25,683 bases of DNA, taken from a virus. Below are positions 282-16,856 of this stretch, piece by piece. The first letter of the stretch is position 1. Every line of letters starts with the position of its first letter. The stretch lies in IMG/VR virus record IMGVR_UViG_3300025104_000005, positions 1 through 25,683 of that record. One strand, written 5' to 3'. A program made the position numbers and the translations under genes. The notes under the pieces were generated by a model that was not told the DNA's origin, made no database searches, and worked only from the letters and a program-made list of their open reading frames with translations.

Positions 282-1064
282 ATGACGATGGGCAAACGTG
301 GCCGCAAAACCAAAGCCAAGCCGGAGAACGGCCTCGAGCCTCGCTGTGAGCACTTGCGGGGTAAGCCCCCCCGCTGCCAGGCCCGGCGTACCAATGGTGA
401 GCAGTGCAGGAAACCCGCTGTGCGGGGTACGACCGTCTGCCAGCTTCATGGCGCTGGGTATCCCTCGAGGGTCAAGGCGGGCGAGCGCAAAGACCCCCGA
501 ACTGAACCCGTCAAGCACCGGCTTTACAGCAACATCCAGTACGACGACCTCTACACCCTGATTGACCGCGTAGAGGAAACCATCACAAAAGACGGCGAAA
601 CGACCCGTGAGCTTGCGGTAGCCAAAAGCCTGCTCGAGCGTGCCCTGGCGCAGTTTGAGCGCTACCAGGACACCCCCGAACGCCTCGAGCCCCTGGTGGC
701 CGCCCTGGAGGAAGAGCTAGGCCGTTGCCTGGAGGCTAAAGAGCTTGTAGAGGCGGCGCGGGTGCGTCAGGACATTCGGCAGGCCGAGAGCCTTTTGCGG
801 ATGTTCACGTCCAGCATGGACAAGGTAGCCAACCTGGTGGCAAAAATCATCAACCTCGAGAAGCAGCGGGCCGAGACAAGGGCGAAACTGGCCGAAGTCA
901 AGGCCCTCGAGCAGTTCACTTTGTACGTGGGCAAGGCTCGAGCCATCTTCCATCAGGTTGCGACGGTGGAGCAGGTAGAGTTGTTAGAAGAACTGCTACG
1001 GCGCGAACTACTCAACCCCCTGCGCCTGACCCTGCCCGAACCGGATCAATATGGCCCAAACTGA
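282..1064 (+). CDS. Probable terminase small subunit (HGG-type zinc-motif protein)
   Basis: A 260-residue soluble protein lying directly before, and overlapping by 14 bp, the large terminase gene. That is the usual place of the DNA-recognition subunit, which binds the packaging site and hands DNA to the large subunit. Near the N terminus it carries C32-x9-C42-x10-C53-x2-H56 ending in LHGAG, a Cys/His motif found in small phage DNA-packaging and related proteins. The remainder (about residues 80-240) is charged and helical, with coiled-coil character suited to oligomerisation. ATG 282 is preferred because GGTGGAG lies six bases upstream; in-frame GTG 270 would place the Shine-Dalgarno inside the gene. 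The terminase role is inferred mainly from position, since small subunits diverge quickly. Confidence 0.6.
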   Translation: MTMGKRGRKTKAKPENGLEPRCEHLRGKPPRCQARRTNGEQCRKPAVRGTTVCQLHGAGYPSRVKAGERKDPRTEPVKHRLYSNIQYDDLYTLIDRVEETITKDGETTRELAVAKSLLERALAQFERYQDTPERLEPLVAALEEELGRCLEAKELVEAARVRQDIRQAESLLRMFTSSMDKVANLVAKIINLEKQRAETRAKLAEVKALEQFTLYVGKARAIFHQVATVEQVELLEELLRRELLNPLRLTLPEPDQYGPN

Positions 1065-3117
1065 CCCTCTAGGCCGCCTTGACCCTGCTTTTGCCCTGGC
1101 CTTCCAGGACAGTTTTTTTCGTCCTCCGCCACAGTTTAGCGAGGATGACCTGAGCACCCTCGAGCGCTTCGTCAAAGTCGCGGGCCTGCAACCGGAGGGT
1201 ATCGGTGGCCGCAAGTTCAACCTAGACCGCTTCCCGTACCTGCGCGACCTGTACGCCGAACAGCGGGCCAACCCCTTTCGTCGCATTGTAATCATGAAGG
1301 CGGCGCAAATGGGCCTCACCGTGCGCCTGCTCATGCGCTGCCTGTGGTGGGTGGCGGATGGGCGCAAACAGGTCAACGTGGCCCTTTTCTTCCCGTCAGA
1401 AAAAGCCGTTTTTGAGCTGCACACCTCGCGGTTTCGGCCTATGGCAGAGTCCAGCGTCAAAATGATGCGAATGGCTGACAGCTTCGACCGCATGGGCCTG
1501 GTGCGGTTTGGGGTGTCCACCATGCGGTTTCGGGGTATGCGCTCACCGGTGGGCCTGGACTCCTTTCCGGTGGACGTGGAGGAGTTCGACGAGGTACGCC
1601 TGATGCCCACGTCCTACATCCAGCGGGCTTTTGTGCGTCTGTCGGAATCGCAGCTTCGTGGCCCGCATGGGGAAGCGGGGATTATCGAGCTAAACAGCAC
1701 GGCGGGCTTCCCTAATCAGGACATTGACCTGTGGTTTTCCCGCTCCGATATGAACTACTGGCGCACACCCTGCCCCAACCCAGCTTGCAAGCGCTCGAGG
1801 ACGGGTATCATCATGCCCCTGCGCTGGCCGGATGTGGTGGGCAGGAATGGCTCGAGGCTCTACTATCAGTGCCCGGACTGCCTCACCGAGATACCGGATG
1901 ACTGGCTGCTTACCAAGGGCTTTTACGTCCCTGAGAGGCCCGGCGCTAAAGATGAGTCCGGCATCCCCTGGCGAGGCTACCAGTTCAGTCAGATTCTGAA
2001 GGGTAACAGCTTCCTGCCCGAGTTGTGGGGTGAGTTTCAGCGCGGTGACAACATGGCGGAGTTTTATAACTCCCGCCTGGGCCTGCCTTATCAGGACAAA
2101 AACGCGATACCGGCGACGCGGGATGTGGTGCTGGCCTGCCGTGAAGAGGCGTATCGGTGGCCGGTAGAAGGCGAACCGGTGGCCTATCGAGCAATGGGGG
2201 TAGACCAGCGCGGTGTAGAAAAGCACATAGCGATTTACGACCTGGGCGCAGATGGGCGATTTTACGTAGCCCATCTCGAGGTTGTCGAAGCCTCCGGCAA
2301 TGAAGCCGTGTACCGCCTGGTGGCCCTGGCCCGTCGGTGGGGGGTTGATGTGGTGGTGGTGGACGGCGAACCTTCCTATGACCTGGCAGTGGCTCTTGGC
2401 CGTCATCCCGACATGCCTCGAGGCTCTGTCTGGCTGGCCGATTACGTGGAGAATGCCCCTCAGATGATTCAGTGGTCAGACGAGCGGGCCAACAAGAAAA
2501 TTGCGACGGGCACGGGCGAAACCAAATATGAGTTTCGGGTACTGATTGACCGCTACAAGGGCATGGACTGGGCTCTCTCCAAGTTCGCGCGGCGGGAGCT
2601 GGTGCTACCGGCAGACTTCGAGGCCAAAACCCAAAGCCGTTCGGTGCGGGGCGTTGTCCAGGCCGCGGCGGTTGGGCAGGAGTATCTGACCCACCTTGAG
2701 AATATCGCTCGGGTGTCGGTGCTTGTTACCCGCAAAACCGAGGACGGGGAGAAGTTCGGGTATGGCGAGTACCGGCGCACCTTCCGCCACCTGTCGGTTG
2801 ACCCCCACTTCGCCCATGCCCACCTATTCGCCTGTGTGGGGCTCTCCAGGCGGGCGGGTACGGTCTCGGTGTCGTATGCCAAAGACAATCCCCTCGAGCC
2901 GCCTCCAGCGCCCGATAAACCCGTTTTGGGCCTGCCGGATGCCCTGCAACCCGAGGCCATACAGCAACAAATCAAGGCCGCCAAAGCCAAAACCTGTGGG
3001 ACGTGCCGATATTTTCTAGCAGATAGACGGCGCTGCGGGCATCCGATCAACGCCTACGCACATATCCAGGTAGAGACCGATACCCCACACTGTGCGTACT
3101 ACACGCGGGCGCGGTAG
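1051..3117 (+). CDS. terL: Terminase large subunit, GpA family (packaging ATPase/nuclease)
   Basis: A 688-residue motor protein that pumps DNA into the capsid and cuts the concatemer. KAAQMGLT at residues 83-90 matches the deviant Walker A of lambda gpA (KSARVGYS), with the lysine at the front of the loop. A Walker B-like FPVDVEEFDE lies at about 172-181. A four-cysteine zinc site is formed by C241, C246, C274 and C277. The C-terminal half is RNase H-like, with acidic candidates D385 (MGVDQRG) and D438 (VVVVDGE). The last 40 residues add a second Cys/His cluster (CGTC, RRCGH, HCAYY) that may bind metal. The gene starts inside the preceding one without a clear ribosome binding site, implying translational coupling. 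The family call is firm; the C-terminal metal site is inference. Confidence 0.93.
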   Translation: MAQTDPLGRLDPAFALAFQDSFFRPPPQFSEDDLSTLERFVKVAGLQPEGIGGRKFNLDRFPYLRDLYAEQRANPFRRIVIMKAAQMGLTVRLLMRCLWWVADGRKQVNVALFFPSEKAVFELHTSRFRPMAESSVKMMRMADSFDRMGLVRFGVSTMRFRGMRSPVGLDSFPVDVEEFDEVRLMPTSYIQRAFVRLSESQLRGPHGEAGIIELNSTAGFPNQDIDLWFSRSDMNYWRTPCPNPACKRSRTGIIMPLRWPDVVGRNGSRLYYQCPDCLTEIPDDWLLTKGFYVPERPGAKDESGIPWRGYQFSQILKGNSFLPELWGEFQRGDNMAEFYNSRLGLPYQDKNAIPATRDVVLACREEAYRWPVEGEPVAYRAMGVDQRGVEKHIAIYDLGADGRFYVAHLEVVEASGNEAVYRLVALARRWGVDVVVVDGEPSYDLAVALGRHPDMPRGSVWLADYVENAPQMIQWSDERANKKIATGTGETKYEFRVLIDRYKGMDWALSKFARRELVLPADFEAKTQSRSVRGVVQAAAVGQEYLTHLENIARVSVLVTRKTEDGEKFGYGEYRRTFRHLSVDPHFAHAHLFACVGLSRRAGTVSVSYAKDNPLEPPPAPDKPVLGLPDALQPEAIQQQIKAAKAKTCGTCRYFLADRRRCGHPINAYAHIQVETDTPHCAYYTRAR

Positions 3118-3127
3118 GGGTGTGCGC

Positions 3128-3156
3128 TTGCAAGGTGTAGCAGGATGTGCTACATT
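3128..3156 (+). promoter_or_regulatory. Cassette promoter 1 with dyad operator
   Basis: TTGCAA (3128-3133), a 17-base spacer and TACATT (3151-3156) form a standard promoter. A perfect dyad, GTAGCA-N5-TGCTAC (3137-3153), fills the spacer and overlaps the -10, a placement that would let a bound repressor block polymerase. The -10 ends 17 bases before ATG 3174, and the leader carries GGTGGAGG. Almost the same block recurs at 3590. Confidence 0.8.
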
Positions 3157-3173
3157 GGGGGTGGAGGTAGACT

Positions 3174-3548
3174 ATGAAACTGACCGGCAAAGGGTTCAAC
3201 CACAATAGCGAGAAGGGCGAAATCGTCTTTCTCGCGCAGGACGCAACTTTCTGCATCGCGGCAGGTGAGGCCTTCAGCGAGGGCCTCTCGGCGGACGAGG
3301 CCCTCGACTTCGCCCCCGCCCTGTTCGTTGAGGCGGTCAACGCCCTCATCGGCGGGACTTTTGCCCGTCCGGGCGCGACCGACCTCACGGACGGGCGCTT
3401 CATCGTGGAGGACGAGCGGATGGCTGTTGAGGGTTGGTGGGCCATTCCCGTCACCGGGTACGCCCGGTGGTACGCCAACCTCGAGGCCCTGGTGAAGGGC
3501 GAGTGGGAGCGGGCCGTAGAGGCCCGTATGCCTCACCTGGTTTACTAG
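3174..3548 (+). CDS. Hypothetical protein, cassette gene 1
   Basis: A 124-residue acidic protein with no family I recognise, no signal peptide and no membrane segment. It begins MKLTGKGFNHNSEKGEIVFL and has a tryptophan- and tyrosine-containing C-terminal part. The start is well supported by GGTGGAGG eight bases upstream and a dedicated promoter with an operator dyad; a hairpin terminator follows the stop. It is therefore a stand-alone transcription unit right after the large terminase. Independent control in a phage region suggests accessory (moron-like) cargo, perhaps acting on the host or on competing phages, but nothing in the sequence gives its activity. Confidence 0.8.
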   Translation: MKLTGKGFNHNSEKGEIVFLAQDATFCIAAGEAFSEGLSADEALDFAPALFVEAVNALIGGTFARPGATDLTDGRFIVEDERMAVEGWWAIPVTGYARWYANLEALVKGEWERAVEARMPHLVY

Positions 3549-3564
3549 GTTCATCATCCACCCA

Positions 3565-3588
3565 GGCCCCCTCGAGGGGGCCTTTCTT
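3565..3588 (+). terminator. Rho-independent terminator with CTCGAG core
   Basis: The palindrome GGCCCCCTCGAGGGGGCC (3565-3582) is followed at once by TTTCTT. It lies between cassette gene 1 and the next promoter, which begins at 3590. Confidence 0.88.
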
Positions 3589-3589
3589 A

Positions 3590-3618
3590 TTGCAAGGTGT
3601 AGCAGGATGTGCTACATT
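3590..3618 (+). promoter_or_regulatory. Cassette promoter 2 with dyad operator
   Basis: TTGCAA (3590-3595), a 17-base spacer and TACATT (3613-3618), with the perfect dyad GTAGCA-N5-TGCTAC at 3599-3615. The block is essentially a copy of 3128-3156, and the identity continues through the leader to the start codon (ATG 3636) with only a few differences. The -10 again ends 17 bases before the ATG. The promoter starts two bases after the previous terminator. Confidence 0.8.
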
Positions 3619-3635
3619 GGGTGTGGAGGTAGAAC

Positions 3636-3845
3636 ATGGCACACGAACAAAAAGCGGTAAAAGCGTGGCGGGCGGCCAACCCAGATGGGTTGATTGGCCG
3701 CCTGGTGGACTTGCAGCGGCGCGACCCTGAGCGGGCGCGGCGGCTTGCCTATTTCATTGAGCGGTACTACTACGCAGGGACACCGGCGGGCGAGCCCTGG
3801 CCCTTCCAGTGGCTCATGGCGGATGTTGCAAGCTGGCCGAGGTAA
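3636..3845 (+). CDS. Hypothetical protein, cassette gene 2a
   Basis: A 69-residue basic protein rich in arginine, tryptophan and tyrosine (for example ERYYYAGTPAGEPWPFQW). I recognise no family. The start is fixed by GTGGAGG in the conserved leader and by the shared promoter. Its stop lies three bases before the next gene, so the two form a small operon under cassette promoter 2. The N-terminal half (residues 1-45) looks helical and positively charged, compatible with nucleic-acid or protein binding, but that is a guess from composition. Confidence 0.75.
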   Translation: MAHEQKAVKAWRAANPDGLIGRLVDLQRRDPERARRLAYFIERYYYAGTPAGEPWPFQWLMADVASWPR

Positions 3846-3848
3846 ATT

Positions 3849-4514
3849 ATGGATTTGGAATCTCTGGCAAAAATGAAGCGGTTGATTCAGGCGGGGCTGG
3901 CCGAGGCCCGGCCCCATGGCGGGTACGTGGTCAAGGTGGCGCGGGAGTCCTCCTATAATGAGGACGACCTAACCCACTGCCACCCAAGTTACAACGTAGA
4001 TCCGGGCTACGACTACATCACCGTCCGGCCCGATCAGGTGGCCGAAATGATGGCTCCTGACTTTGAGGCCCGCCTCGAGGCTTACCGTGCCGAACAGGAG
4101 GCTCAACAGAAGGCGCGGTGGGAAGAGGTTATGCGCCAACAGGCTGAGGAAGAGGCGCGGTGGGAGAAGATAGCCACCCGCTTTGCGACCTTTGACCCCG
4201 AGGTAGTGTTGGCTATCGGGGTGGAGTGGTACGCCACCTACGTCGTCGTGGATGGCGTGCGCAAGCCCGCCTGTGAAGCCCCCTACCCCGTGCAGCGGCG
4301 CATTCGGGATGTTGCCCTGGGCGTCATTGGCCCTTCCCGCCTGGTGCGGGTCAAGCGCTCCCATCGGGGCCTCGAGGCCCGTGTGCGCAACGTGGTGGTG
4401 GATGAGGCGGCGCTTCTGGCCCGCACCCGAACCAACCGCAACCCAATCAAGGCTGAGGGGGAGCTGGTCAAGCTCATTAGCGACGGCTCCTTCATTCGGG
4501 TGGTCACGCGCTAG
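3849..4514 (+). CDS. Hypothetical protein, cassette gene 2b
   Basis: A 221-residue soluble protein of unknown function. Residues 75-115 form a strongly charged Glu/Arg/Gln coiled coil (EARLEAYRAEQEAQQKARWE and following). It is followed by a mixed alpha/beta part with the hydrophobic strand VEWYATYVVVDGV and a basic C-terminal part. It starts three bases after the stop of gene 2a, whose last codons include GCCGAGG, a weak ribosome binding site, so translation is probably coupled. A hairpin terminator follows. No catalytic motif was recognised. The reading frame is long and well placed, so the gene itself is secure. Confidence 0.75.
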   Translation: MDLESLAKMKRLIQAGLAEARPHGGYVVKVARESSYNEDDLTHCHPSYNVDPGYDYITVRPDQVAEMMAPDFEARLEAYRAEQEAQQKARWEEVMRQQAEEEARWEKIATRFATFDPEVVLAIGVEWYATYVVVDGVRKPACEAPYPVQRRIRDVALGVIGPSRLVRVKRSHRGLEARVRNVVVDEAALLARTRTNRNPIKAEGELVKLISDGSFIRVVTR

Positions 4515-4532
4515 GGTAGGCCACACGTCAGG

Positions 4533-4569
4533 TATAGCCGAGTCTTTCGAGGGGCTCGGCTATAATTTT
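4533..4569 (+). terminator. Hairpin terminator overlapping the next gene's -10 box
   Basis: Perfect 10-bp arms TATAGCCGAG (4533-4542) and CTCGGCTATA (4555-4564) with a 12-base loop are followed by ATTTTG. The hairpin lies 18 bases after the stop of gene 2b and fits a Rho-independent terminator. The end of its 3' arm is also the first part of TATAAT (4561-4566), the -10 box of the next gene. Confidence 0.65.
4561..4566 (+). promoter_or_regulatory. -10 box of a leaderless promoter
   Basis: TATAAT ends six bases before ATG 4573, with no Shine-Dalgarno between. This is the spacing of leaderless transcripts, in which transcription starts at or next to the A of ATG, common in Deinococcus-Thermus. 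No -35 is evident. Confidence 0.7.
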
Positions 4570-4572
4570 GCC

Positions 4573-5388
4573 ATGTACACGGTTCGGGTGGCCCTCGAGT
4601 CCGATGCCCTCAACGACATTCTGGCGCGGGTGGGGGCGGATGTTGCCGAACTATTCCCGCATACCCTGCAAGCCGTCAGAACGCTCGCTGAGGCGGCTCG
4701 AGAACACTGGCAGGCCCTGGCCCTCAAGCAAGTTCCACCCCCCTGGCGGGTGGCCTATAGAGAGGCCATAAGGGTAGAGATGCAGGTGGGCGATAACACA
4801 CTCACCTACTCGATTTTTGTGGATCACCCCAAGGCGGGGGCCCTCGAGCGGGGCCTGCCTGCCTGGGATATGAAAAAGGTGCTGCAAACCTCCAAAAAAG
4901 TGCGGGTGAGCCGTCGGGGTCACAAATACTTGATTATCCCGTTCGACTGGGGGGAGCCCTCGGCTATCGCAGTGAGAGCCCAAAAAGCCCGCAACGTCCA
5001 GGAGCAGGTCGCTACTGCCTGGATACAGCGTGAACCTCTCGAGTCCCTGGTGAGTGTGACCAAAACAGGGCGTCGGCTGTACTCCTGGGGCGATAGGCTC
5101 ACACCGGCGGAGGTGCGCGAGCTGGGCCTCGACCCCGAAAAACGCGATGAGGGCCGCAACCTGGTAGGCATGGTGCTGATGAAATCCCTACCGGATAGGC
5201 GGCAGTACGCCATGACCTTTCGCACCATGAGCGAAATAAGCGACCCTGCAAGCTGGATACATCCGGGCTTCCCCGCTCTCAATCTCACTGAGCAGGTGGT
5301 ACGGTGGCTCGAGTCTATTTATCCCGCTTCCATCCGCGAGGCCCTGGCCCTGGATGAGATGCTGGCCCTCGAGCGGTTCAAAGAATAA
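4573..5388 (+). CDS. Hypothetical protein, possible virion-assembly protein
   Basis: A 271-residue protein starting MYTVRVALESDALNDILARV. A helical N-terminal part (about 1-60) precedes a stretch around residues 65-120 with strands and the segment HPKAGALERGLPAWDMKK, then KYLIIPFDWG. The pattern 'E-R-G-x5-DMK...L...IPF' loosely recalls small phage head-tail joining or HK97 gp10-like proteins, but the match is too weak to name it. ATG 4573 was chosen because the -10 box lies exactly at leaderless distance, although the frame stays open back to 4252 inside the previous gene. A G/C hairpin follows the stop. It does not share the cassette promoter type, so it may belong to a different regulatory class. 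Confidence 0.7.
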   Translation: MYTVRVALESDALNDILARVGADVAELFPHTLQAVRTLAEAAREHWQALALKQVPPPWRVAYREAIRVEMQVGDNTLTYSIFVDHPKAGALERGLPAWDMKKVLQTSKKVRVSRRGHKYLIIPFDWGEPSAIAVRAQKARNVQEQVATAWIQREPLESLVSVTKTGRRLYSWGDRLTPAEVRELGLDPEKRDEGRNLVGMVLMKSLPDRRQYAMTFRTMSEISDPASWIHPGFPALNLTEQVVRWLESIYPASIREALALDEMLALERFKE

Positions 5389-5408
5389 CCCCCCCTCGAG
5401 GGGGGGGG
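5389..5408. terminator. G/C hairpin between convergent genes
   Basis: Seven C, TCGA and nine G form a strong perfect hairpin directly after the stop at 5386-5388. It lies between the plus-strand gene ending at 5388 and the minus-strand gene ending at 5430. The U-tract is imperfect on both sides (TACTCTTT on plus, TTATTCTTT on minus), so it may stop transcripts from both directions. Confidence 0.7.
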
Positions 5409-5429
5409 TACTCTTTGCCCGCGTCCCGT

Positions 5430-5633
5430 TCAAATGTCGAATCCCCCTTTGCCGTCGGGGTTGATGCGCACAACGGCGTCGAACGCAACCAGCCCCTTGT
5501 CGGTAACGTACCCGCTCGAGGTGATCTCGAGCACCTTGGCGGTGCGGAGATACCCCCGCTGGTTTTTATAGCGGATTTTGGCCCCTACAGGGGCCGCTTT
5601 CTTTTCTTCCGGGGTCAAGGGTTCCTGTACCAT
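5430..5633 (-). CDS. Hypothetical protein, divergent cassette gene
   Basis: A 67-residue protein beginning MVQEPLTPEEKKAAPVGAKI. A short charged N terminus is followed by a compact strand-rich part (IRYKNQRGYLRTAKVLEI, then VAFDAVVRIN) that could form a small SH3-like barrel; no family is recognised. ATG at 5633 is preferred over upstream starts because the minus strand reads GGTGGAGGCAGACTATG here, the same leader as the plus-strand cassettes. Its -10 (TAGTAT on the minus strand) ends 17 bases before the ATG, matching them exactly. It is divergent from the 32-residue gene at 5701, and their promoters overlap. Confidence 0.75.
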   Translation of the reverse strand: MVQEPLTPEEKKAAPVGAKIRYKNQRGYLRTAKVLEITSSGYVTDKGLVAFDAVVRINPDGKGGFDI

Positions 5634-5650
5634 AGTCTGCCTCCACCTAG

Positions 5651-5679
5651 ATACTAGCATAAAGTAGCAAGATATGCTA
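5651..5679 (-). promoter_or_regulatory. Divergent cassette promoter, minus strand
   Basis: Read on the minus strand, TAGCAT (5679-5674), a 17-base spacer and TAGTAT (5656-5651) form a promoter whose -10 ends 17 bases before ATG 5633. It mirrors the plus-strand promoter around position 5667, and the operator dyad 5664-5680 lies inside it. Confidence 0.6.
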
Positions 5680-5683
5680 CATT
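5655..5683 (+). promoter_or_regulatory. Cassette promoter 3 with dyad operator
   Basis: TAGCAT (5655-5660), a 17-base spacer and TACATT (5678-5683), with the perfect dyad GTAGCA-N5-TGCTAC at 5664-5680. The following leader through ATG 5701 equals that of cassette 1. The -35 overlaps the -10 of the minus-strand promoter by two bases, so the two probably cannot be occupied together. TAGCA/TGCTA half-sites begin at 5655, 5665 and 5675, exactly 10 bp apart. Confidence 0.75.
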
Positions 5684-5700
5684 GGGGGTGGAGGTAGACT

Positions 5701-5799
5701 ATGACCATGACCAAGGCCCGCGAGCGGGGTGAGAACGTGCTCGAGGTACTCTACGATGACCTCGAGCGGTTCCTGCGTGAGGGCGACTTTCGCCTGTAG
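5701..5799 (+). CDS. Hypothetical 32-residue protein, cassette gene 3
   Basis: A very small gene, MTMTKARERGENVLEVLYDD followed by LERFLREGDFRL. It is supported by signals rather than length: the conserved promoter-operator, GGTGGAGG at standard distance before ATG 5701, and a strong terminator 17 bases after the stop (TAG 5797-5799). The peptide is charged and probably one amphipathic helix (residues 9-28), which suggests it acts by binding a partner. Candidates include an inhibitor of a host enzyme or an antitoxin-like peptide, but the sequence does not decide. No homologue is recognised. Confidence 0.65.
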   Translation: MTMTKARERGENVLEVLYDDLERFLREGDFRL

Positions 5800-5815
5800 C
5801 GCACCCACCCCATCA

Positions 5816-5840
5816 CCCCCCCTCGAGGGGGGTTTTTCTT
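5816..5840 (+). terminator. Rho-independent terminator with CTCGAG core
   Basis: A C-run, TCGA and a G-run form a perfect hairpin followed by TTTTTCTTT, directly downstream of the 32-residue gene and just before the end of the convergent helicase gene (5844). The T-tract makes it plus-oriented. Confidence 0.88.
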
Positions 5841-5843
5841 TGG

Positions 5844-8800
5844 CTAGAACAAAGCCGCTTGCGGCTCATTTTGCTGTTTCTGTGGGCTTTCCTCGGGCTC
5901 GGGCTGCCCGTCGCGGTTGAGTTTTGCCAGTCGGTAGCGCAACGCAAGGCCGGTCTCGTCCAGGTTCTCGCTCGTACCCTGGAAAATGCTACCCATCATC
6001 TTCTTTTTTGCGATTCGCTCGTAGTTTTCGCGGTCAAAATCGGTATCGCTGAGTACGGTGTGCAGTTCGATGGCCTTTTTCTGGCCCAACCTGTCAATAC
6101 GGGCGCTGCGCTGTTCCCACGATTTTTGCGTCATGGGTACGTCGTACTGGATGAGGTGATGGCCTCGGTGTTGCAGGTTAGCCCCTACCTGCCCGGCGTC
6201 GCTCGAGACAATCACGTCCACTTCCCCGCGATTAAACCGGCTGCGAATCCGGGCCTTCTCCTGAGCGCTGTGCCCACCGTGCAGTACGGCCACTTTGTGC
6301 CCCTGCCGCTGGGCTTCTTCGGCAAGCATCTCCACGGCGGCGCGGTTGCGGGCGAATATCACTGTGCCCTGCCCACGACGGGCCTCGAGCAGTTTCATCA
6401 CGTGCTGCACCTTGCCGTTCTGCTCCGGCGGGTGCTCGTTGATGATGCGGTTCTGAGCCGCATGGTGGATGATGCCAAGGTTGGCCTGTATACGTCTGGC
6501 AACTTCCTCATGCGCCTCTGGCGGGACACCCGTGAACGATTCCGGCGACAGCATTTGCGCCGCCTCCACGTCCACCTTGCCCTGTCGCTGGGCTCGCTGT
6601 AGGCGGCGGTAGGCGTGCCCAAGGGCCTCGAGGGCTTCCTTCTGCGCGGGGTGCAGGGGTACGTACCCGTGTCCGCTGGGGCTGTCGCCCTGGGTTCCGT
6701 CAGCGCCCCAAACCACGCGCTTGACCGTGTTGGCGGGTACGGAATCCACGAAAAAGTGTGGGTCAGTGAAGCGCTTGACCGCCTCACGGCTGGCCTGGGC
6801 GTCCAGTCCGTAGCGGCGCATAAACTCGTCCTTATCGCCAAAACGCTGCGGGTCAATCTTCGCTAACCAGTCGGCGATCTCGCTCATATCGTTTTTAAGC
6901 GGACTCCCGGTGGCATAAGTGCCATATTTGGACAGGCTCATGGCGGTATCGAACACCCGTTGCATGATGCTGTCCGGTTTCCCGTCGCGGCCTAGAAAAT
7001 CGTGAGCCTCGTCGAATGCTAAAAAGTCCAGCGGGATGTTCTCAGCCTCGAGGGCCTTCTTCATCAGTTTTTGCCGTTCCTCAAGCGGGGCCTGGACAAA
7101 ACGCTGGGTGAACTGCTCCACGTCCTGCCCGTGGTGCTCGGCCATGATGCGCAACAGGTCATCCCGCAAGCTCTGGTGGGTGATGGCAACAAAATGGGTA
7201 TTGGGGTCTTTGAGCGCGGCCTTGCGCTCGGCAAATGTACCCTCCCGGGCGTGCCAGCGGTAGCGGCCTGGCTCGAGGGTCATCGCCATTTCCTCGCCCA
7301 TCTGGTCACGCACAACCGAGGGCACGCCCATTATCACCTTGCGAGCCTCCCCTCGGTTCAAAAGTTCCGTGCCCATCCCGATCATCACGCTGGATTTGCC
7401 GCTACCCGTGCCCAAAAATAGGCCGGTTTTTTTGGCGGCTAACAGGTGCTTGATGGCCCGCTGCTGCTTGACGTATTTTGTGCCCCTGCCCATCGTGCGA
7501 TCTGGGATGATGTTCACGGGGTTTTGCAAGGGTCGGATAGGCCCTGAGATGGCCTGCATCATGCTGGCTAGGCGGTTCTCCACCCCCTCGGGCAGGGCAT
7601 GGCGCTCGAGGTTCGGCAAAGGCGGGTCGGGCTCGAGCGCGGGGTCTCCGGTGGCTCCGGCAAACAGGGCAACCTGAGCACTCTGGGCGGCCTTGTCCGC
7701 TTCTTTTTTGGCGCGGTAAGCCTCGAGCAGACTCCCTGCACCCCCCATGTAGGCAAACTTCCCTCCCTGGCGTTCGCGCAACCTTCCGGCTTCAGCCTGT
7801 ACCTGCTTCTGAAACTCCGCAAATCCTTCAGGGTCTCGGATTTGCCACAACACATCCCCCCACGGGTTGGTCTTTTTGGTCGTGGTGAACGGCTTACCTG
7901 TGAGGTTGGCATGATAGCGGTTGAACCGCTCGGTGACGGCCCCTCGCATATGCTCGAGCACGGCGTTGTAGGCCCGGTGGGGGCCTTTGAGGGTATCCAC
8001 GAACTCGGCCCATTCCACCAGGTCGTCACCCATTGCTTCGGCGGCTATCTGCTTCCGGCGGCCATGCCAGGCCCGCCAATCGGGGGACAGGGCCAAACCT
8101 TCTACAATGTCCCCATGGGCGCTGGGTGGCCTTACGTTGGCCTTCCCGCTCTCGGTGAGGGTGATGCTGCCGTTCTCGTTTTCCACGTAATCGCCCTTGC
8201 CCAACCCCATTGACCGGATGGCCTCGGCTTTGAGGCGCTGATCGTCCTCAGCAAACGCACCGCCTCGAGCCCTGAACGTCAGGGTGATGGGCTTGTTGGG
8301 GTCAAAATCCTGTTCGTCCCAGAACATCGCGGCCTGGCTGCCGCTACCAAACTTCGGCGGCTCTGGATTGCGCTGGTCATGCTGCTCGAGGGCCTTCGCT
8401 ACCGCCTCTTTTCGCTGGGCAAGTTCTTCGGGCGATTTGCCCAATACTTCGGTGAGGTAGTAATGCCGGATGGCCCGCTGATCCTGCGGTGTAAGCTCTC
8501 CAAGCGGTTTATAGGCCACCTGGGTGCGGGGGTCTTGCATCAGGGCCAAATACAGGGCTTTGCGGGCATCAGGGGTGTCCTCGAGCTTCTGATCTAAATA
8601 ATGCACCTGGTCGGGCCGGTGGGTCTGCACCCACTGACGGGCTGCCTCCTGAATCCGGCGGGCTATCTCGGGGTGCCTGGCCTCCAGGTTGGTGTAGTCC
8701 ACGGGCCGGTCTACTTCGTACTTCTCCCCGTCCTTGTTGGTGCGGGTTTCCTTCCCGTCGTAGGTCGGTAGCAGGGTCTCGAGGTGTTCGTAATACTCGC

Positions 8801-10922
8801 CTTGTTTGTTTTCTGGAACCCAGTCCTGCACAAATGATAGGCTGCCCAGCAACCGCTTCAGTTCGGCGGGCGTCCACCCGTCGGCCAGCCGCGAATAGAC
8901 GGCTTCCTCGAGGGCCTCTTTTATTGGCTTGTTGGCGGCAATCCCTGGGGTCGCCATGCGCTGCGGGCGCGGGGGGTCGCTGTCAAAAGCGCTGGCGGGG
9001 TAGCGGGTGAACCCTGGCGGTAAATAGTCGTCCTCATCCAGCTCGCCATTTTTGATGGCGGCGGCGGTTTTGCGCAGTTCGGCCAATGCCTCGTCCTGCG
9101 GCTCCATCAGGGCATCGAGGCCGTCCGGCCCCACGTGCACAAGCAGTTGATCTCCGCTCTTTTCGTACTCATACTGGCCTTCTTTGAGTCCCAAAGCCCG
9201 CAAAATCGGCGCTACGTCCCGTACTCCACGCACCCCCATGTTCAGGGTCATTTTTTCTTGTGGCGCTTGCTGTAAAGCCATGTTCAGGGCGGCGCTGGCC
9301 TCCACCTGGCCCAATACCGTACCCAGGACGTCTCGAGCTTCCTCTATCGTTTCGCGGCGCATATCCAGCATTCGCTGTACGGCCATGCCGTCGGTGCTGT
9401 CGGTAATTGGCGGGATTTCAAAGGATCGAGCCGCGTCCAGCAGGGCCTGAGCTTTCTGCATGGCCTCGGGGATGCGGGCAAGGTGGGCCTCGTGCTCTTC
9501 CTCCAGGGCCTTTCGTAACGCATCTACGTCCTCTTTCGGTAAGCGCTTGTGCAGGGCTCGGGCCAGCATCTGCACGGCGGCATCGGTTCCAAAGTGGTCT
9601 AGGATTGAGCGGTCTAGCAGGTTGTCGCCCAAAACCGCCAATGACACGTTGGACAGGTGGCCGTAGGCTCCTGTGGCGTGGGCTCCGTGCATGGCGTCCC
9701 GTAGCTGCTTGTAGTCCAGCCCGTCAGCAGTGGCCTCCACCTGGCCCAAAAAATTACGCATCAGGTCTTCGCGCTGCATGGCTTCCATGCTCTGCTCGAT
9801 GTCCTGCCGGGCCTCGTCGGATAGGTGAATCTCGAGGGGGGCTCCGGTGGGTTCACGGGTCATGCGCCTGATGGTCTCGGGGGTGAGGGTCGGGTCTTTG
9901 CCAAAAGCAATTTTCCGCTGGGCCTTCCTGAGTTCTTTTAGCTGGCGGTTGGCCTCGATAAAGGCGCGAACGTGGGCGGCTTCTTCGGCTACCTTCTCGG
10001 GGGTAATCTCGATTTTGGGTTTGGGTAGGGCGGCCTCGGTGGTTATGGCGGCTAATGGCCGTAGCTGCTGGGCCTCAATCATGCGGGCGCGGGCGGCCAA
10101 CATCCTCGCGGCCTGCTCAGGTTCGGCTTCCTCGAGCCGTTTCTGGAAAAACTTATCGGCCTCGGTTTTGGCCTGGCGGGGCCCAAAACCCTGCTGGGCG
10201 GCCTCTTCTTTGAGGTTGCGCTGATACCCAGGCGATTTTTTTGGTGCGCTGGGTTCGGGTGGCTCGAGTTCCTGGTTCGATAGCACCTCGCGGCGCAGCT
10301 CGTCATTATCAATCAGGGTTTTGATGAGTTCGCGCTCGAGCTTTTTGACTGCACTCTCCACCTTCCTGACCTGACTGGCGGCGGCCAAACCAGCGGCTAG
10401 GTTGACAGCGGGCTCTGCGTCGGCGGCGTCCTCTTCGTTGGCTGTAATCGGGGTGATGCTGCGTTTAGCCACTTCCTTGAGCGTTTCTTTCAGGTCGGGC
10501 TCGAGCAGGGCCTCAAAAGCGGGGTTCTGGGTAAGGCGGGCGGCGGCTTCCAAAACCCGCTGCCGGGCCTTGTGCACGGCGGGCTCGAGCTTCGCCATTT
10601 CCTCAACCCGTCGAGCGCGTTCCTCGGGAGTTGCCTGCGCCTTTTGTTTGGCCCGCCGCTTCCAGTCCTCAGCGGTTCCGAGTTTGCGAAGCCGCAAGCC
10701 GGTCAACGCTTTGGGGCCGCCAATAACATGAGCGCTCCCATCGGGGTTTTCGCGGATTTTGACGTGAATGTAGGCTTCGTGGTCGGGGCCGTGGGGCTTG
10801 AGGGTGATCCAGCGCTCCCCTGGCTGTAGGGGTTCGTTGGCTTTTCTCAGGGCGGGCTCGGCCCAAAAAACAAGAGCAAAGCCGTTTTCGTCATAGGCTA
10901 GACAGTAATCCGGCAGGTACAT
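5844..10922 (-). CDS. Giant polyvalent-type protein with C-terminal SNF2-like helicase
   Basis: A 1692-residue protein. The helicase core occupies about residues 1150-1660: Walker A GTGSGKSS near 1171, DEAH box (AFDEAHDF) near 1303, motif III-like TGSPLKN, motif V-like SSDAGQVGANLQ and motif VI QRSARIDRLGQ near 1604. The order and sequence fit an SNF2-type superfamily 2 DNA translocase. The 1100 residues before it are charged, helical and mostly unrecognised; residues 1-90 (WITLKPHG, HVIGGPKAL) recall the opening domain of large phage and mobile-element polyvalent proteins. Such proteins can be injected with the DNA or protect it (the P1 DarB helicase-methylase is a precedent), but no methylase motif is seen here. 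The -10 TAGCAT lies six bases before the ATG, so the message may be leaderless, and a dyad covers that site. The helicase call is firm; the role is inference. Confidence 0.88.
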   Translation of the reverse strand: MYLPDYCLAYDENGFALVFWAEPALRKANEPLQPGERWITLKPHGPDHEAYIHVKIRENPDGSAHVIGGPKALTGLRLRKLGTAEDWKRRAKQKAQATPEERARRVEEMAKLEPAVHKARQRVLEAAARLTQNPAFEALLEPDLKETLKEVAKRSITPITANEEDAADAEPAVNLAAGLAAASQVRKVESAVKKLERELIKTLIDNDELRREVLSNQELEPPEPSAPKKSPGYQRNLKEEAAQQGFGPRQAKTEADKFFQKRLEEAEPEQAARMLAARARMIEAQQLRPLAAITTEAALPKPKIEITPEKVAEEAAHVRAFIEANRQLKELRKAQRKIAFGKDPTLTPETIRRMTREPTGAPLEIHLSDEARQDIEQSMEAMQREDLMRNFLGQVEATADGLDYKQLRDAMHGAHATGAYGHLSNVSLAVLGDNLLDRSILDHFGTDAAVQMLARALHKRLPKEDVDALRKALEEEHEAHLARIPEAMQKAQALLDAARSFEIPPITDSTDGMAVQRMLDMRRETIEEARDVLGTVLGQVEASAALNMALQQAPQEKMTLNMGVRGVRDVAPILRALGLKEGQYEYEKSGDQLLVHVGPDGLDALMEPQDEALAELRKTAAAIKNGELDEDDYLPPGFTRYPASAFDSDPPRPQRMATPGIAANKPIKEALEEAVYSRLADGWTPAELKRLLGSLSFVQDWVPENKQGEYYEHLETLLPTYDGKETRTNKDGEKYEVDRPVDYTNLEARHPEIARRIQEAARQWVQTHRPDQVHYLDQKLEDTPDARKALYLALMQDPRTQVAYKPLGELTPQDQRAIRHYYLTEVLGKSPEELAQRKEAVAKALEQHDQRNPEPPKFGSGSQAAMFWDEQDFDPNKPITLTFRARGGAFAEDDQRLKAEAIRSMGLGKGDYVENENGSITLTESGKANVRPPSAHGDIVEGLALSPDWRAWHGRRKQIAAEAMGDDLVEWAEFVDTLKGPHRAYNAVLEHMRGAVTERFNRYHANLTGKPFTTTKKTNPWGDVLWQIRDPEGFAEFQKQVQAEAGRLRERQGGKFAYMGGAGSLLEAYRAKKEADKAAQSAQVALFAGATGDPALEPDPPLPNLERHALPEGVENRLASMMQAISGPIRPLQNPVNIIPDRTMGRGTKYVKQQRAIKHLLAAKKTGLFLGTGSGKSSVMIGMGTELLNRGEARKVIMGVPSVVRDQMGEEMAMTLEPGRYRWHAREGTFAERKAALKDPNTHFVAITHQSLRDDLLRIMAEHHGQDVEQFTQRFVQAPLEERQKLMKKALEAENIPLDFLAFDEAHDFLGRDGKPDSIMQRVFDTAMSLSKYGTYATGSPLKNDMSEIADWLAKIDPQRFGDKDEFMRRYGLDAQASREAVKRFTDPHFFVDSVPANTVKRVVWGADGTQGDSPSGHGYVPLHPAQKEALEALGHAYRRLQRAQRQGKVDVEAAQMLSPESFTGVPPEAHEEVARRIQANLGIIHHAAQNRIINEHPPEQNGKVQHVMKLLEARRGQGTVIFARNRAAVEMLAEEAQRQGHKVAVLHGGHSAQEKARIRSRFNRGEVDVIVSSDAGQVGANLQHRGHHLIQYDVPMTQKSWEQRSARIDRLGQKKAIELHTVLSDTDFDRENYERIAKKKMMGSIFQGTSENLDETGLALRYRLAKLNRDGQPEPEESPQKQQNEPQAALF

Positions 10923-10935
10923 AGCACCATGCTAT
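10921..10935. promoter_or_regulatory. Dyad over the start and -10 of the helicase gene
   Basis: The perfect inverted repeat ATAGCA-N3-TGCTAT covers the helicase start codon (minus strand ATG 10922-10920) and a TAGCAT box six bases before it. The core TAGCA/TGCTA is the same as in the cassette operators, but the half-sites are 8 bp rather than 10 bp apart. It is a likely repressor site, though the spacing difference lowers confidence. The intergenic region 10923-11078 also holds a 6-bp-stem hairpin (10960-10975) and a G-rich tract (11006-11027). Confidence 0.5.
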
Positions 10936-11065: not shown

Positions 11066-11091
11066 TAGAATGGGCTACATGAAAAGTAGCA
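11066..11091 (+). promoter_or_regulatory. Leaderless promoter and half-sites of the repressor gene
   Basis: TAGAAT (11066-11071) ends seven bases before ATG 11079, a leaderless arrangement with no clear -35 or Shine-Dalgarno. GCTAC (11074-11078) and GTAGC (11086-11090) flank the start codon as an inverted pair. They have the cassette half-site sequence in the opposite relative order, which suggests autoregulation. Confidence 0.45.
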
Positions 11092-11318
11092 ACATTGAAA
11101 AACTGCTAAGGGATCAGGTGCGTGAAGCTCTGTTCAAACAGCGCCTTACACAGGCGCAGCTTGCCGAAAAAACGGGTATACACCGCGTGCATATAAATAA
11201 GATGTTGAATGGGCAGTCGGGGAAATTCCCAAATGCCTGGGAAAGGGTACTCGAGGCCCTGGGCCTTGAGGTTCAGGTAAAACCCAAAAAGCGATCAAAC
11301 AAGGTCAACGTCGAGTAG
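11079..11318 (+). CDS. XRE-type HTH regulator, probable phage repressor
   Basis: A 79-residue protein made almost only of a DNA-binding domain. The helix-turn-helix lies at about residues 23-47 (LTQAQLAEKTGIHRVHINKM), followed by LNGQ and a last helix ending EALGLEV, the Cro/CI/XRE pattern. The basic tail KPKKRSNK may add DNA contacts. Such small proteins bind dyads as dimers. ATG 11079 is chosen because the -10 box sits at leaderless spacing; in-frame ATGs at 11055 and 11070 would add 8 or 3 residues. It is transcribed divergently from the helicase gene and its 3' end overlaps the convergent 74-residue gene by 24 bp. It is the only small XRE-type regulator in the window, so the best candidate for the repeated TAGCA/TGCTA operators; that link is inference. 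Confidence 0.85.
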   Translation: MKSSNIEKLLRDQVREALFKQRLTQAQLAEKTGIHRVHINKMLNGQSGKFPNAWERVLEALGLEVQVKPKKRSNKVNVE

Positions 11319-15515: not shown

Positions 15516-16856
15516 CTATGGTAAATCGTAGCTCCAGTTGAGGGGGGGGCTGATGGTCATGCTGTCCAGGGTGTCGTCGGGCAGGGTCTGAACTACTACC
15601 ACAACGCTGTACGTCCACCCAAGCGGCGGGTCAATGGTCATGCTGTCCAGGGTGTCGTCGGGCAGGGTCTGAACTACTACCACAACGCTGTACGTCCACC
15701 CAAGCGGCGGGTCAATGGTCATGCTGTCCAGGGTGTCGTCGGGCAGGGTACGGATTACGGTTGTGGGAATATAATCCCACCCAAGCGGCGGGTCAACGGC
15801 CATCGGCTCGAGCGTGTCGTCGGGTAGGCTGGGCTCAATCACAAGGGGGTCGTATTCCCAATCCTCGGGCGCTTGCAAGGCGATGGGCGCTAGACTGTCC
15901 TTGTCCTGCACGGGATACAGGTCGGATCGCACGTTGAGCAGGTAGCCCTCGGCCTGCCACTGGTAGCCAACCTGGGTCACGATGTCCAGCGTCACAGGCG
16001 CGGGGAAGGTCTCGAGGGTGTACTCGATGCTGTACTGGTCGCGCTGGGCTCGCATGTAGAGGGTCTGCCGATTTGGAGACAGGTACAGCAATAGCACGTC
16101 GCTGTCGGCGGTGGTTTGCAGGGTGATGGCATCGTTGAATACGACAGGATCAACTCCAACAAACGGGCCTCGGTACACATAGCCGCTGCTCAGGGGGTCA
16201 TACTGCCTAACGTAAATGCTCGAGGGACTCCCGGGCACTTCGTAGGCAAGCACCGGCTGGGCCGCCTGGTCAAAACACAGACTGATGTGCTGGTAGGTGC
16301 TGTTGTTGGTCGGGATGTCCTGCACATAGGCCCATCCGGTTGGCCCCTGGCGGTACAGTTTGACCGTTCCCTCGGTTTTGGTGACTGCGTAGGGCGTGGA
16401 AAACAGCGTGCTAAAACCCCCAGCGGTGACGCCAATCTCGGTCGGCCCCATTGTTTTTGAGACTTCCGGCGCAAAACCTTCCGCTGCTCCGTTACGAGGG
16501 TAAACTTCCACACCTCCGGTGACGCCCTCGCCCAATCGGTAAAGGAATTCCAGCTTCATGCCTCGCTCGAGCCATAGCGGTCGAAAAGTCTCGATAAACA
16601 CAAGTTCGTTGGCGCTGGTGTACAGTGCGGCCTCGGTGACGCGCACCGGCGCGGCGTTGGGGTCGGCGCTGGGTTCAAACACCGCTCTCAAGTAAATCTG
16701 GCCGTCATTTAGCGTGTACTGGCAGGGCTGCTCGAGGCCCAACGGCGCGGCCAATGCGCTTCCTGGTGGGTTCGGGGTTTTGGTGGCGTCATTATAGCCG
16801 CCATCTCCAAGCCGGAGTATGTAGGACTGCTCACCACAGGGCGCGGAAAGTGGCAT
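15516..16856 (-). CDS. Tail fibre protein with C-terminal 27-residue repeats
   Basis: A 446-residue protein. The first 110 residues have the gpH-type fibre N-terminal pattern (ILRLGDGGY, then RVTEAALYTSANELVFIETF), which docks fibres to the baseplate. A beta-rich middle of about 200 residues follows. The last 110 residues are a tandem array with period 27, consensus (T/S)LPDDTLDSM-T-I-DPPLGW-x-Y followed by a run of valines: two identical units, two diverged ones and a partial unit. The gene lies directly after the gpI-like gene, where fibre genes usually sit. The repeats probably form a rod or beta-sandwich array whose length can vary. Confidence 0.75.
   Translation of the reverse strand: MPLSAPCGEQSYILRLGDGGYNDATKTPNPPGSALAAPLGLEQPCQYTLNDGQIYLRAVFEPSADPNAAPVRVTEAALYTSANELVFIETFRPLWLERGMKLEFLYRLGEGVTGGVEVYPRNGAAEGFAPEVSKTMGPTEIGVTAGGFSTLFSTPYAVTKTEGTVKLYRQGPTGWAYVQDIPTNNSTYQHISLCFDQAAQPVLAYEVPGSPSSIYVRQYDPLSSGYVYRGPFVGVDPVVFNDAITLQTTADSDVLLLYLSPNRQTLYMRAQRDQYSIEYTLETFPAPVTLDIVTQVGYQWQAEGYLLNVRSDLYPVQDKDSLAPIALQAPEDWEYDPLVIEPSLPDDTLEPMAVDPPLGWDYIPTTVIRTLPDDTLDSMTIDPPLGWTYSVVVVVQTLPDDTLDSMTIDPPLGWTYSVVVVVQTLPDDTLDSMTISPPLNWSYDLP
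15553..15876 (-). repeat. 81-bp tandem repeats in the fibre gene
   Basis: Four units with an exact 81-bp period begin at 15553, 15634, 15715 and 15796. The first two are identical at the DNA level, the third differs in its second half, and the fourth is clearly diverged. The period keeps the reading frame (27 codons). A further degenerate unit follows at protein level. Copy number could change by slippage or recombination. Confidence 0.9.

Follow-up and report, generated by a model that had tools for sequence, protein, structure and literature searches.

Results

Genes and proposed control units between TerL and the helicase

The window, by which we mean the whole stretch of DNA analysed, is a virus contig of 25,683 bases. 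Downstream of its TerL gene (1051-3117) and ahead of a helicase gene (5844-10922) lie a family of 49-nt plus-strand repeats (3128-3176, 3590-3638 and 5655-5703), a divergent minus-strand unit, and the genes behind them. Promoter elements and operators in the list are putative.

3128-3176, plus strand: unit 1, with -35 TTGCAA (3128-3133), operator 1, extended -10 TGC-TACATT (3148-3156), SD leader and ATG at 3174
3137-3153: operator 1, GTAGCA-GGATG-TGCTAC
3174-3548, plus strand: 124-aa gene of unit 1, no homolog found
3564-3583, plus strand: intrinsic-terminator-like hairpin with T-rich tail, 3' of the 124-aa gene
3590-3638, plus strand: unit 2, with -35 TTGCAA, operator 2, -10 TACATT (3613-3618), SD leader and ATG at 3636
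3599-3615: operator 2, GTAGCA-GGATG-TGCTAC
3636-3845, plus strand: 69-aa gene of unit 2, member of an early-operon family
3849-4514, plus strand: 221-aa gene, second in the unit-2 operon, no homolog found
4573-5388, plus strand: 271-aa gene of the PHROG 16819 family, kept in relatives; it has its own TATAAT at 4561 and no operator, and is not unit-controlled
5388-5409: hairpin between the convergent 271-aa and 67-aa genes, which could serve both strands
5430-5633, minus strand: 67-aa gene behind unit 4, no homolog found
5631-5679, minus strand: unit 4, with -35 TAGCAT (5679-5674), extended -10 TGC-TAGTAT (hexamer 5656-5651), 17-nt SD leader and ATG at 5633-5631
5655-5703, plus strand: unit 3, with weak -35 TAGCAT (5655-5660), operator 3, -10 TACATT (5678-5683), SD leader and ATG at 5701
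5664-5680: operator 3, GTAGCA-AGATA-TGCTAC, common to two divergent promoters
5701-5799, plus strand: 32-aa gene of unit 3, with in-frame codon usage strongly favoured
5815-5833, plus strand: intrinsic-terminator-like hairpin with T-rich tail, 3' of the 32-aa gene

The phage is a hot-spring phage and, judged by homology, kin of the Thermus myoviruses. Its TerL matches PHROG 675 and the Pfam GpA_ATPase family and is 51-55% identical to that of the Thermus phages Lalka27a/8/27b, Cumys and phiMa (50-56% in the comparison used for the group assignment); the helicase has homologs in Lalka, Cumys, phiMa and IMG/VR relatives (41-57% identity), and several baseplate genes are 34-50% identical to those of the Lalka/phiMa/Cumys group. 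Homologs of baseplate and tail genes are found in that group and in the IMG/VR relatives too. The window thus carries the related TerL, helicase, baseplate and tail genes by which we assign phages to this group, and so represents part of a myovirus of the Thermus/Meiothermus type. The Thermus myovirus group that includes Lalka, Cumys and phiMa has been described (PMC11437467). The lysogeny region of the relatives (LexA-like regulator, Cro-like regulator and integrase) is absent from the fragment. A 130-nt direct repeat (25200-25329 and 25554-25683, 99% identical) terminates with its second copy exactly at the contig end, which makes an assembly ambiguity the probable reason for the contig stopping there. 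Other repeats in the window are an 81-nt (27-aa) tandem repeat inside a 446-aa tail-region gene (15528-15828) and a 17-nt tandem duplication at 79-112 that resembles a ribosome-binding site (TAyTGTGAGGAGGGAAC).

Anatomy of the repeated units

A prior sequence-only reading had described three plus-strand units with a common dyad, a TACATT -10, 17-nt spacing and a shared leader, and a fourth on the minus strand with the same leader and spacing; these descriptions held, the minus-strand leader being one base off. Each of the three plus-strand units has the exact dyad, GTAGCA-N5-TGCTAC (3137-3153, 3599-3615 and 5664-5680), and the rest of the window lacks it; with two mismatches allowed the sites are still these three (shuffle mean 0.64), and 300 Markov simulations gave no exact copy. 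TACATT starts at 3151, 3613 and 5678, and the distance from the -10 hexamer to the ATG is 17 nt in four of four units, including the minus-strand one. Pairwise identity within the 49-nt units is 94, 86 and 80%, and outside them falls to 20-30% (50 nt upstream) and 20-34% (50 nt downstream). Given this drop at both edges, the copied or constrained stretch is exactly that from -35 to ATG. The dyad and the 49-nt block are well above chance.

The window leader reads GTGGAGGTAGACT, and within the window GGAGGTAGA is confined to the three plus-strand units. The minus-strand leader, CTAGGTGGAGGCAGACT, carries GTGGAGGCAGA, which differs from GGAGGTAGA by one base. The right half-site of the dyad supplies a TGC ahead of the hexamer, giving TGC-TACATT in the plus-strand units and TGC-TAGTAT in unit 4; from general knowledge of bacterial promoters, we take TGC-TACATT to be an extended -10. 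The proposal of TTGCAA as the -35 of units 1 and 2 stands as well, though this hexamer, like TACATT, matches the consensus at four of six positions, a moderate fit, and TAGCAT of unit 3 is a poor one. A consensus promoter scan called no promoter at the units. With hexamers at just four of six and no call by the scanner, the units are no more than predicted promoters. The dyad of unit 3 sits between two divergent promoters and so would control both; as the minus-strand -35 (TAGCAT, 5679-5674) falls within operator 3, a single bound protein would block both directions.

Genes behind the units

Searches of PHROGs, Pfam, phage records and relatives matched nothing to the 124-, 221- and 67-aa genes, and the search with the 32-aa gene, limited to PHROGs, Pfam and relatives, was likewise negative; Pfam and PHROGs gave no family match for any unit gene. 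The annotated frame is nevertheless the best by codon usage for all five, the 32-aa gene included. An AlphaFold model of the 124-aa protein was too poor for structure search (pLDDT 47). The 67-aa gene, which lies beside the helicase, was considered as an Ulx homolog and rejected, the Lalka27b Ulx protein being without a match in the window.

The 69-aa gene is related to a 283-aa protein of Meiothermus phages MMP7 and MMP17 (66% identity), to Riverbug_50 (48%) and to Lalka27b_77 (39%). In Riverbug and Lalka27b the early operon is headed by a transcriptional regulator, and the homolog comes a few genes later. With homologs in early operons of Thermus/Meiothermus temperate phages, the gene therefore belongs to their early-gene repertoire, and these relatives point to early, non-structural functions. 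The units had been thought to drive small unknown genes bounded by hairpins, which might be cargo of the moron kind. Hairpins are present after the 124-aa and 32-aa genes and between the 271-aa and 67-aa genes. The cargo idea is half right: the 124-, 221-, 67- and 32-aa genes are homolog-less amid conserved genes, as it expects, but the 69-aa gene departs from it, having homologs and belonging to an early-operon family.

Searches beyond the window and a parallel system in a relative

Neither ten related phage or virus records nor 50 Thermaceae genomes contained the exact operator, and its absence from the latter is as expected of a phage-specific site. A scan of viral contigs for the dyad with GGAGG returned 15 matches, all coincidences within coding sequence that had neither -10 nor leader; the leader alone gave 10 unrelated matches, one per contig, and a TTGNC/leader pattern gave none in 111 genomes of the class to which Thermaceae belong. 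A survey of repeated start-associated units across 68 loci (window and relatives) yielded no further copies of the window's design. As the exact operator occurs in the window alone, covariation within the operator is absent.

An unbiased comparison of upstream sequences within the relatives did reveal a parallel system in IMGVR_UViG_3300025018_000166 (G003), whose TerL is 50% identical to that of the window. G003 has seven CGYGCGTACGCRCG palindrome sites, each within TTGACG-N17/18-TANNNT, the palindrome lying at the -35 end with its near-consensus TTGACG; at six of the seven a GTGGAGGTNNGACC-ATG leader follows. A unit is found 8 nt past the TerL stop in G003 and 11 nt past it in the window (unit 1), and G003 units bracket the homologous helicase, which in the window is adjoined by units 3 and 4. 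The leaders of the two phages are alike beyond the SD core (GTGGAGGT..GAC.ATG), and none of the other TGGAGGT-starts among the relatives searched has GAC.ATG. Units of such design were not found in Lalka, Cumys, phiMa, MMP7 or a further relative (G001), so that just two phages of the lineage show it. The expectation that the motif would recur in relatives thus failed for the sequence GTAGCA-N5-TGCTAC and succeeded for the architecture, which G003 repeats seven times.

That a relative keeps the cassette design but has another switch sequence suggests that the cassette probably marks co-regulated early host-interaction genes. The operator difference, seen across two genomes, would fit heteroimmune relatives in which repressor and operators have changed together. 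In the operon behind the TerL-proximal unit of G003, a 618-aa ORF has an N6/N4 methylase domain, and this DNA methylase, the sole hint of its kind, suggests that unit genes might have an anti-defence role.

Some features of other kinds were noted in the compared loci. The helicase of the relative (L046:9909-16061, 2050 aa) contains an intein-splicing domain (residues 1213-1537), which divides its match to the helicase of the window; a cluster of repeated TGCGGTC/GACCGCA palindromes at joined positions 22518-22702 of L045-L047 comprises possible origin iterons. In distant TerL relatives (L099, L100 and L101, near 1272-3592), two or three ORFs have a further start-associated dyad, TACGGG-N6-CCCGTA, followed by GAAAGGAA and the ATG. 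A Thermus sp. 2.9 phage contig (L048:14448-15021) contains eight CRISPR-like repeats (GTTGCACGAGATGCTTCCCCGCAAGGGGATTGCGAC), whose spacers had no convincing match in the loci compared.

Candidate repressors

The one HTH_3 match in the contig (11136-11270) falls in a gene for a solo XRE/Cro-CI-type HTH protein of 79 aa:

11079-11318, plus strand: XRE/Cro-CI-type HTH protein, 79 aa

This protein, of a kind like Cro or Aca proteins, would be the sole repressor candidate inside the contig. No operator copy was found at its gene or promoter, and no exact or near operator lies beside its relatives (L084-L087). The start codon of the gene is overlapped by GGCTAC-N7-GTAGCA (11073-11091), with outward-facing GTAGC half-sites on both strands, and the helicase start has the palindrome ATAGCA-N3-TGCTAT (10921-10935), whose spacing differs from that of the operator; neither was counted as an operator. 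Since the contig covers only part of the genome, the true repressor may lie beyond it. Relatives carry LexA-like/Cro-like switch genes (PMC11437467), and a LexA/CI-like repressor outside the fragment, as in Cumys, phiMa and Lalka, is as possible as the XRE protein.

Discussion

We consider it likely that each unit is a promoter-operator-leader cassette and that together they make up a dispersed early regulon, silenced by a phage-specific repressor that blocks RNA polymerase from the promoter. A phage-encoded repressor dimer on the 17-bp dyad would cover the spacer and extended -10 and exclude the host RNA polymerase; without repressor, upon infection or induction, all units would fire together, and the strong SD leader would give high expression and a burst of small host-interaction proteins, until accumulating repressor shut the units off again. 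Behind this model stand the repeated dyad overlapping the -10, an unvarying 17-nt distance from there to the ATG, the abrupt block edges, the coding-like genes and the parallel in G003; promoter activity, protein binding, repressor identity, timing and gene function are what we infer from them. The broader idea of the sequence-only reading, that dispersed small non-structural genes are placed under a presumed common repressor by repetition of the whole unit, is thus well supported by the anatomy and by the seven units of G003.

Alternatively, the units could be classical morons, that is, independent promoter-gene-terminator cargo expressed from the prophage. ORFans among conserved late genes with flanking terminators would suit this, and the usual marks of a moron (absence from relatives, position between conserved genes, a terminator and a promoter, here a predicted one) can all be recognized. 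However, genes under a common operator should be silent in any lysogen producing the repressor, and the 69-aa gene is a member of an early-operon family. The name moron therefore fits in part, and we regard this explanation as unlikely.

It also appears improbable to us that the dyad is an activator site, or the site of an infection-stage sigma or RNA polymerase-modifying factor, that switches the units on. Core promoters so weak by consensus could need such help, and the element that recurs close to the -10 could be a motif of phage promoters. However, a dyad that spans the spacer and extends over the first half of the -10 is in a place typical of repressors, whereas activators usually bind at or upstream of the -35; the palindrome of G003, in turn, is at the -35 end of promoters with near-consensus TTGACG.

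That the repeat acts as RNA, with a 5' hairpin in read-through transcripts governing translation or stability and the conserved leader as the functional part, is in our judgement very unlikely. The 6-bp stem of the dyad does fold, the leader next to the start codon is highly conserved, and read-through is likely at unit 1 since it follows TerL. Against this, the dyad would lie upstream of the +1 of the proposed promoter, the units differ from one another in the spacer and so lack compensatory changes, a single dyad serves both strands at the divergent unit, and the palindrome of G003 does not include a loop. Least probable of all is control by the host, in which a Thermaceae regulator on the dyad would make the genes respond to the state of the host: LexA is one of the host regulators that phages often borrow, but 50 Thermaceae genomes hold no exact site and the relative G003 uses another palindrome.

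It is conceivable, if rather doubtful, that a fixed start-associated cassette serves a phage lineage as an acquisition platform, with new host-interaction genes captured behind its copies at preferred sites, after TerL and around the helicase, and all operators replaced in step with the repressor while immunity types diverged; if so, the cassette would be a ready marker for undiscovered anti-defence genes in phages of thermophiles. The cassette provides a sequence handle on the ORFan early genes of Thermus-type myoviruses, almost none of which have been characterised, and its cargo proteins are testable candidates for host takeover or anti-defence. Moreover, a control design that recurs at equivalent sites of two genomes, each time with an unrelated operator, opens concerted operator change across a dispersed regulon to study.

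Comparison with known systems

Repressor sites scattered over a temperate phage genome, as in the window, are familiar from the C1 operators of phage P1 and the stoperators of L5-like phages, and those sites are asymmetric. There the operator alone is repeated, whereas the window repeats the promoter and leader too. Stoperators are also described in PMC4351075, together with a 17-bp palindromic repeat of cluster O mycobacteriophages; that repeat resembles the window in its dispersed 17-bp dyads but occurs in more than 30 copies, about one third of them within genes, with no tie to starts or promoters.

In SIRV2 and other archaeal viruses (PMC11065993), as in the window, a near-identical control sequence precedes dispersed, small and unrelated genes. 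This conserved early-gene regulatory sequence controls anti-defence genes in SIRV2, with Aca8 as the likely repressor (PMC11065993). In contrast to the window, the promoters are of the archaeal TATA/BRE type, the genes cluster at the genome termini, and the anti-defence role was tested there.

Promoters of acr-aca operons regulated by Aca proteins (PMC9410906) have an inverted repeat in the core promoter that is bound by a small solo HTH protein. The window is similar in that its dyad (3137-3153 in unit 1) lies between -35 and -10 and overlaps the -10. Whereas acr and aca usually share one operon, the units of the window are scattered, with no HTH gene behind any of them and no HTH match in the unit genes.

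Of the designs described so far, the SAS/ESAS system of cluster K mycobacteriophages (PMC3203893), for which no binding factor is known, comes nearest. Its SD leader, GGGATAGGAGCCC, is 13 bp long and lies 3-7 bp before the start codon; about half of the sites are preceded by an inverted repeat whose consensus is subcluster-specific while the leader is kept, and the sequences are absent from the host (PMC3203893). Both systems repeat an SD leader with a linked inverted repeat before non-structural genes of unrelated families. The window leader, GTGGAGGTAGACT, is not GGGATAGGAGCCC but has an analogous position, and an inverted repeat is tightly linked to it in three of three plus-strand units, unit 4 using operator 3. 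SAS/ESAS differs in its imperfect, longer 17-bp repeats, its 4-13 nt spacer, its dozens of copies and its actinobacterial hosts, and the two have no common sequence. The units of the window would work like the SAS/ESAS, SIRV2 and Aca systems but match no family's sequence definition, and they belong to neither SAS/ESAS nor the Aca promoters.
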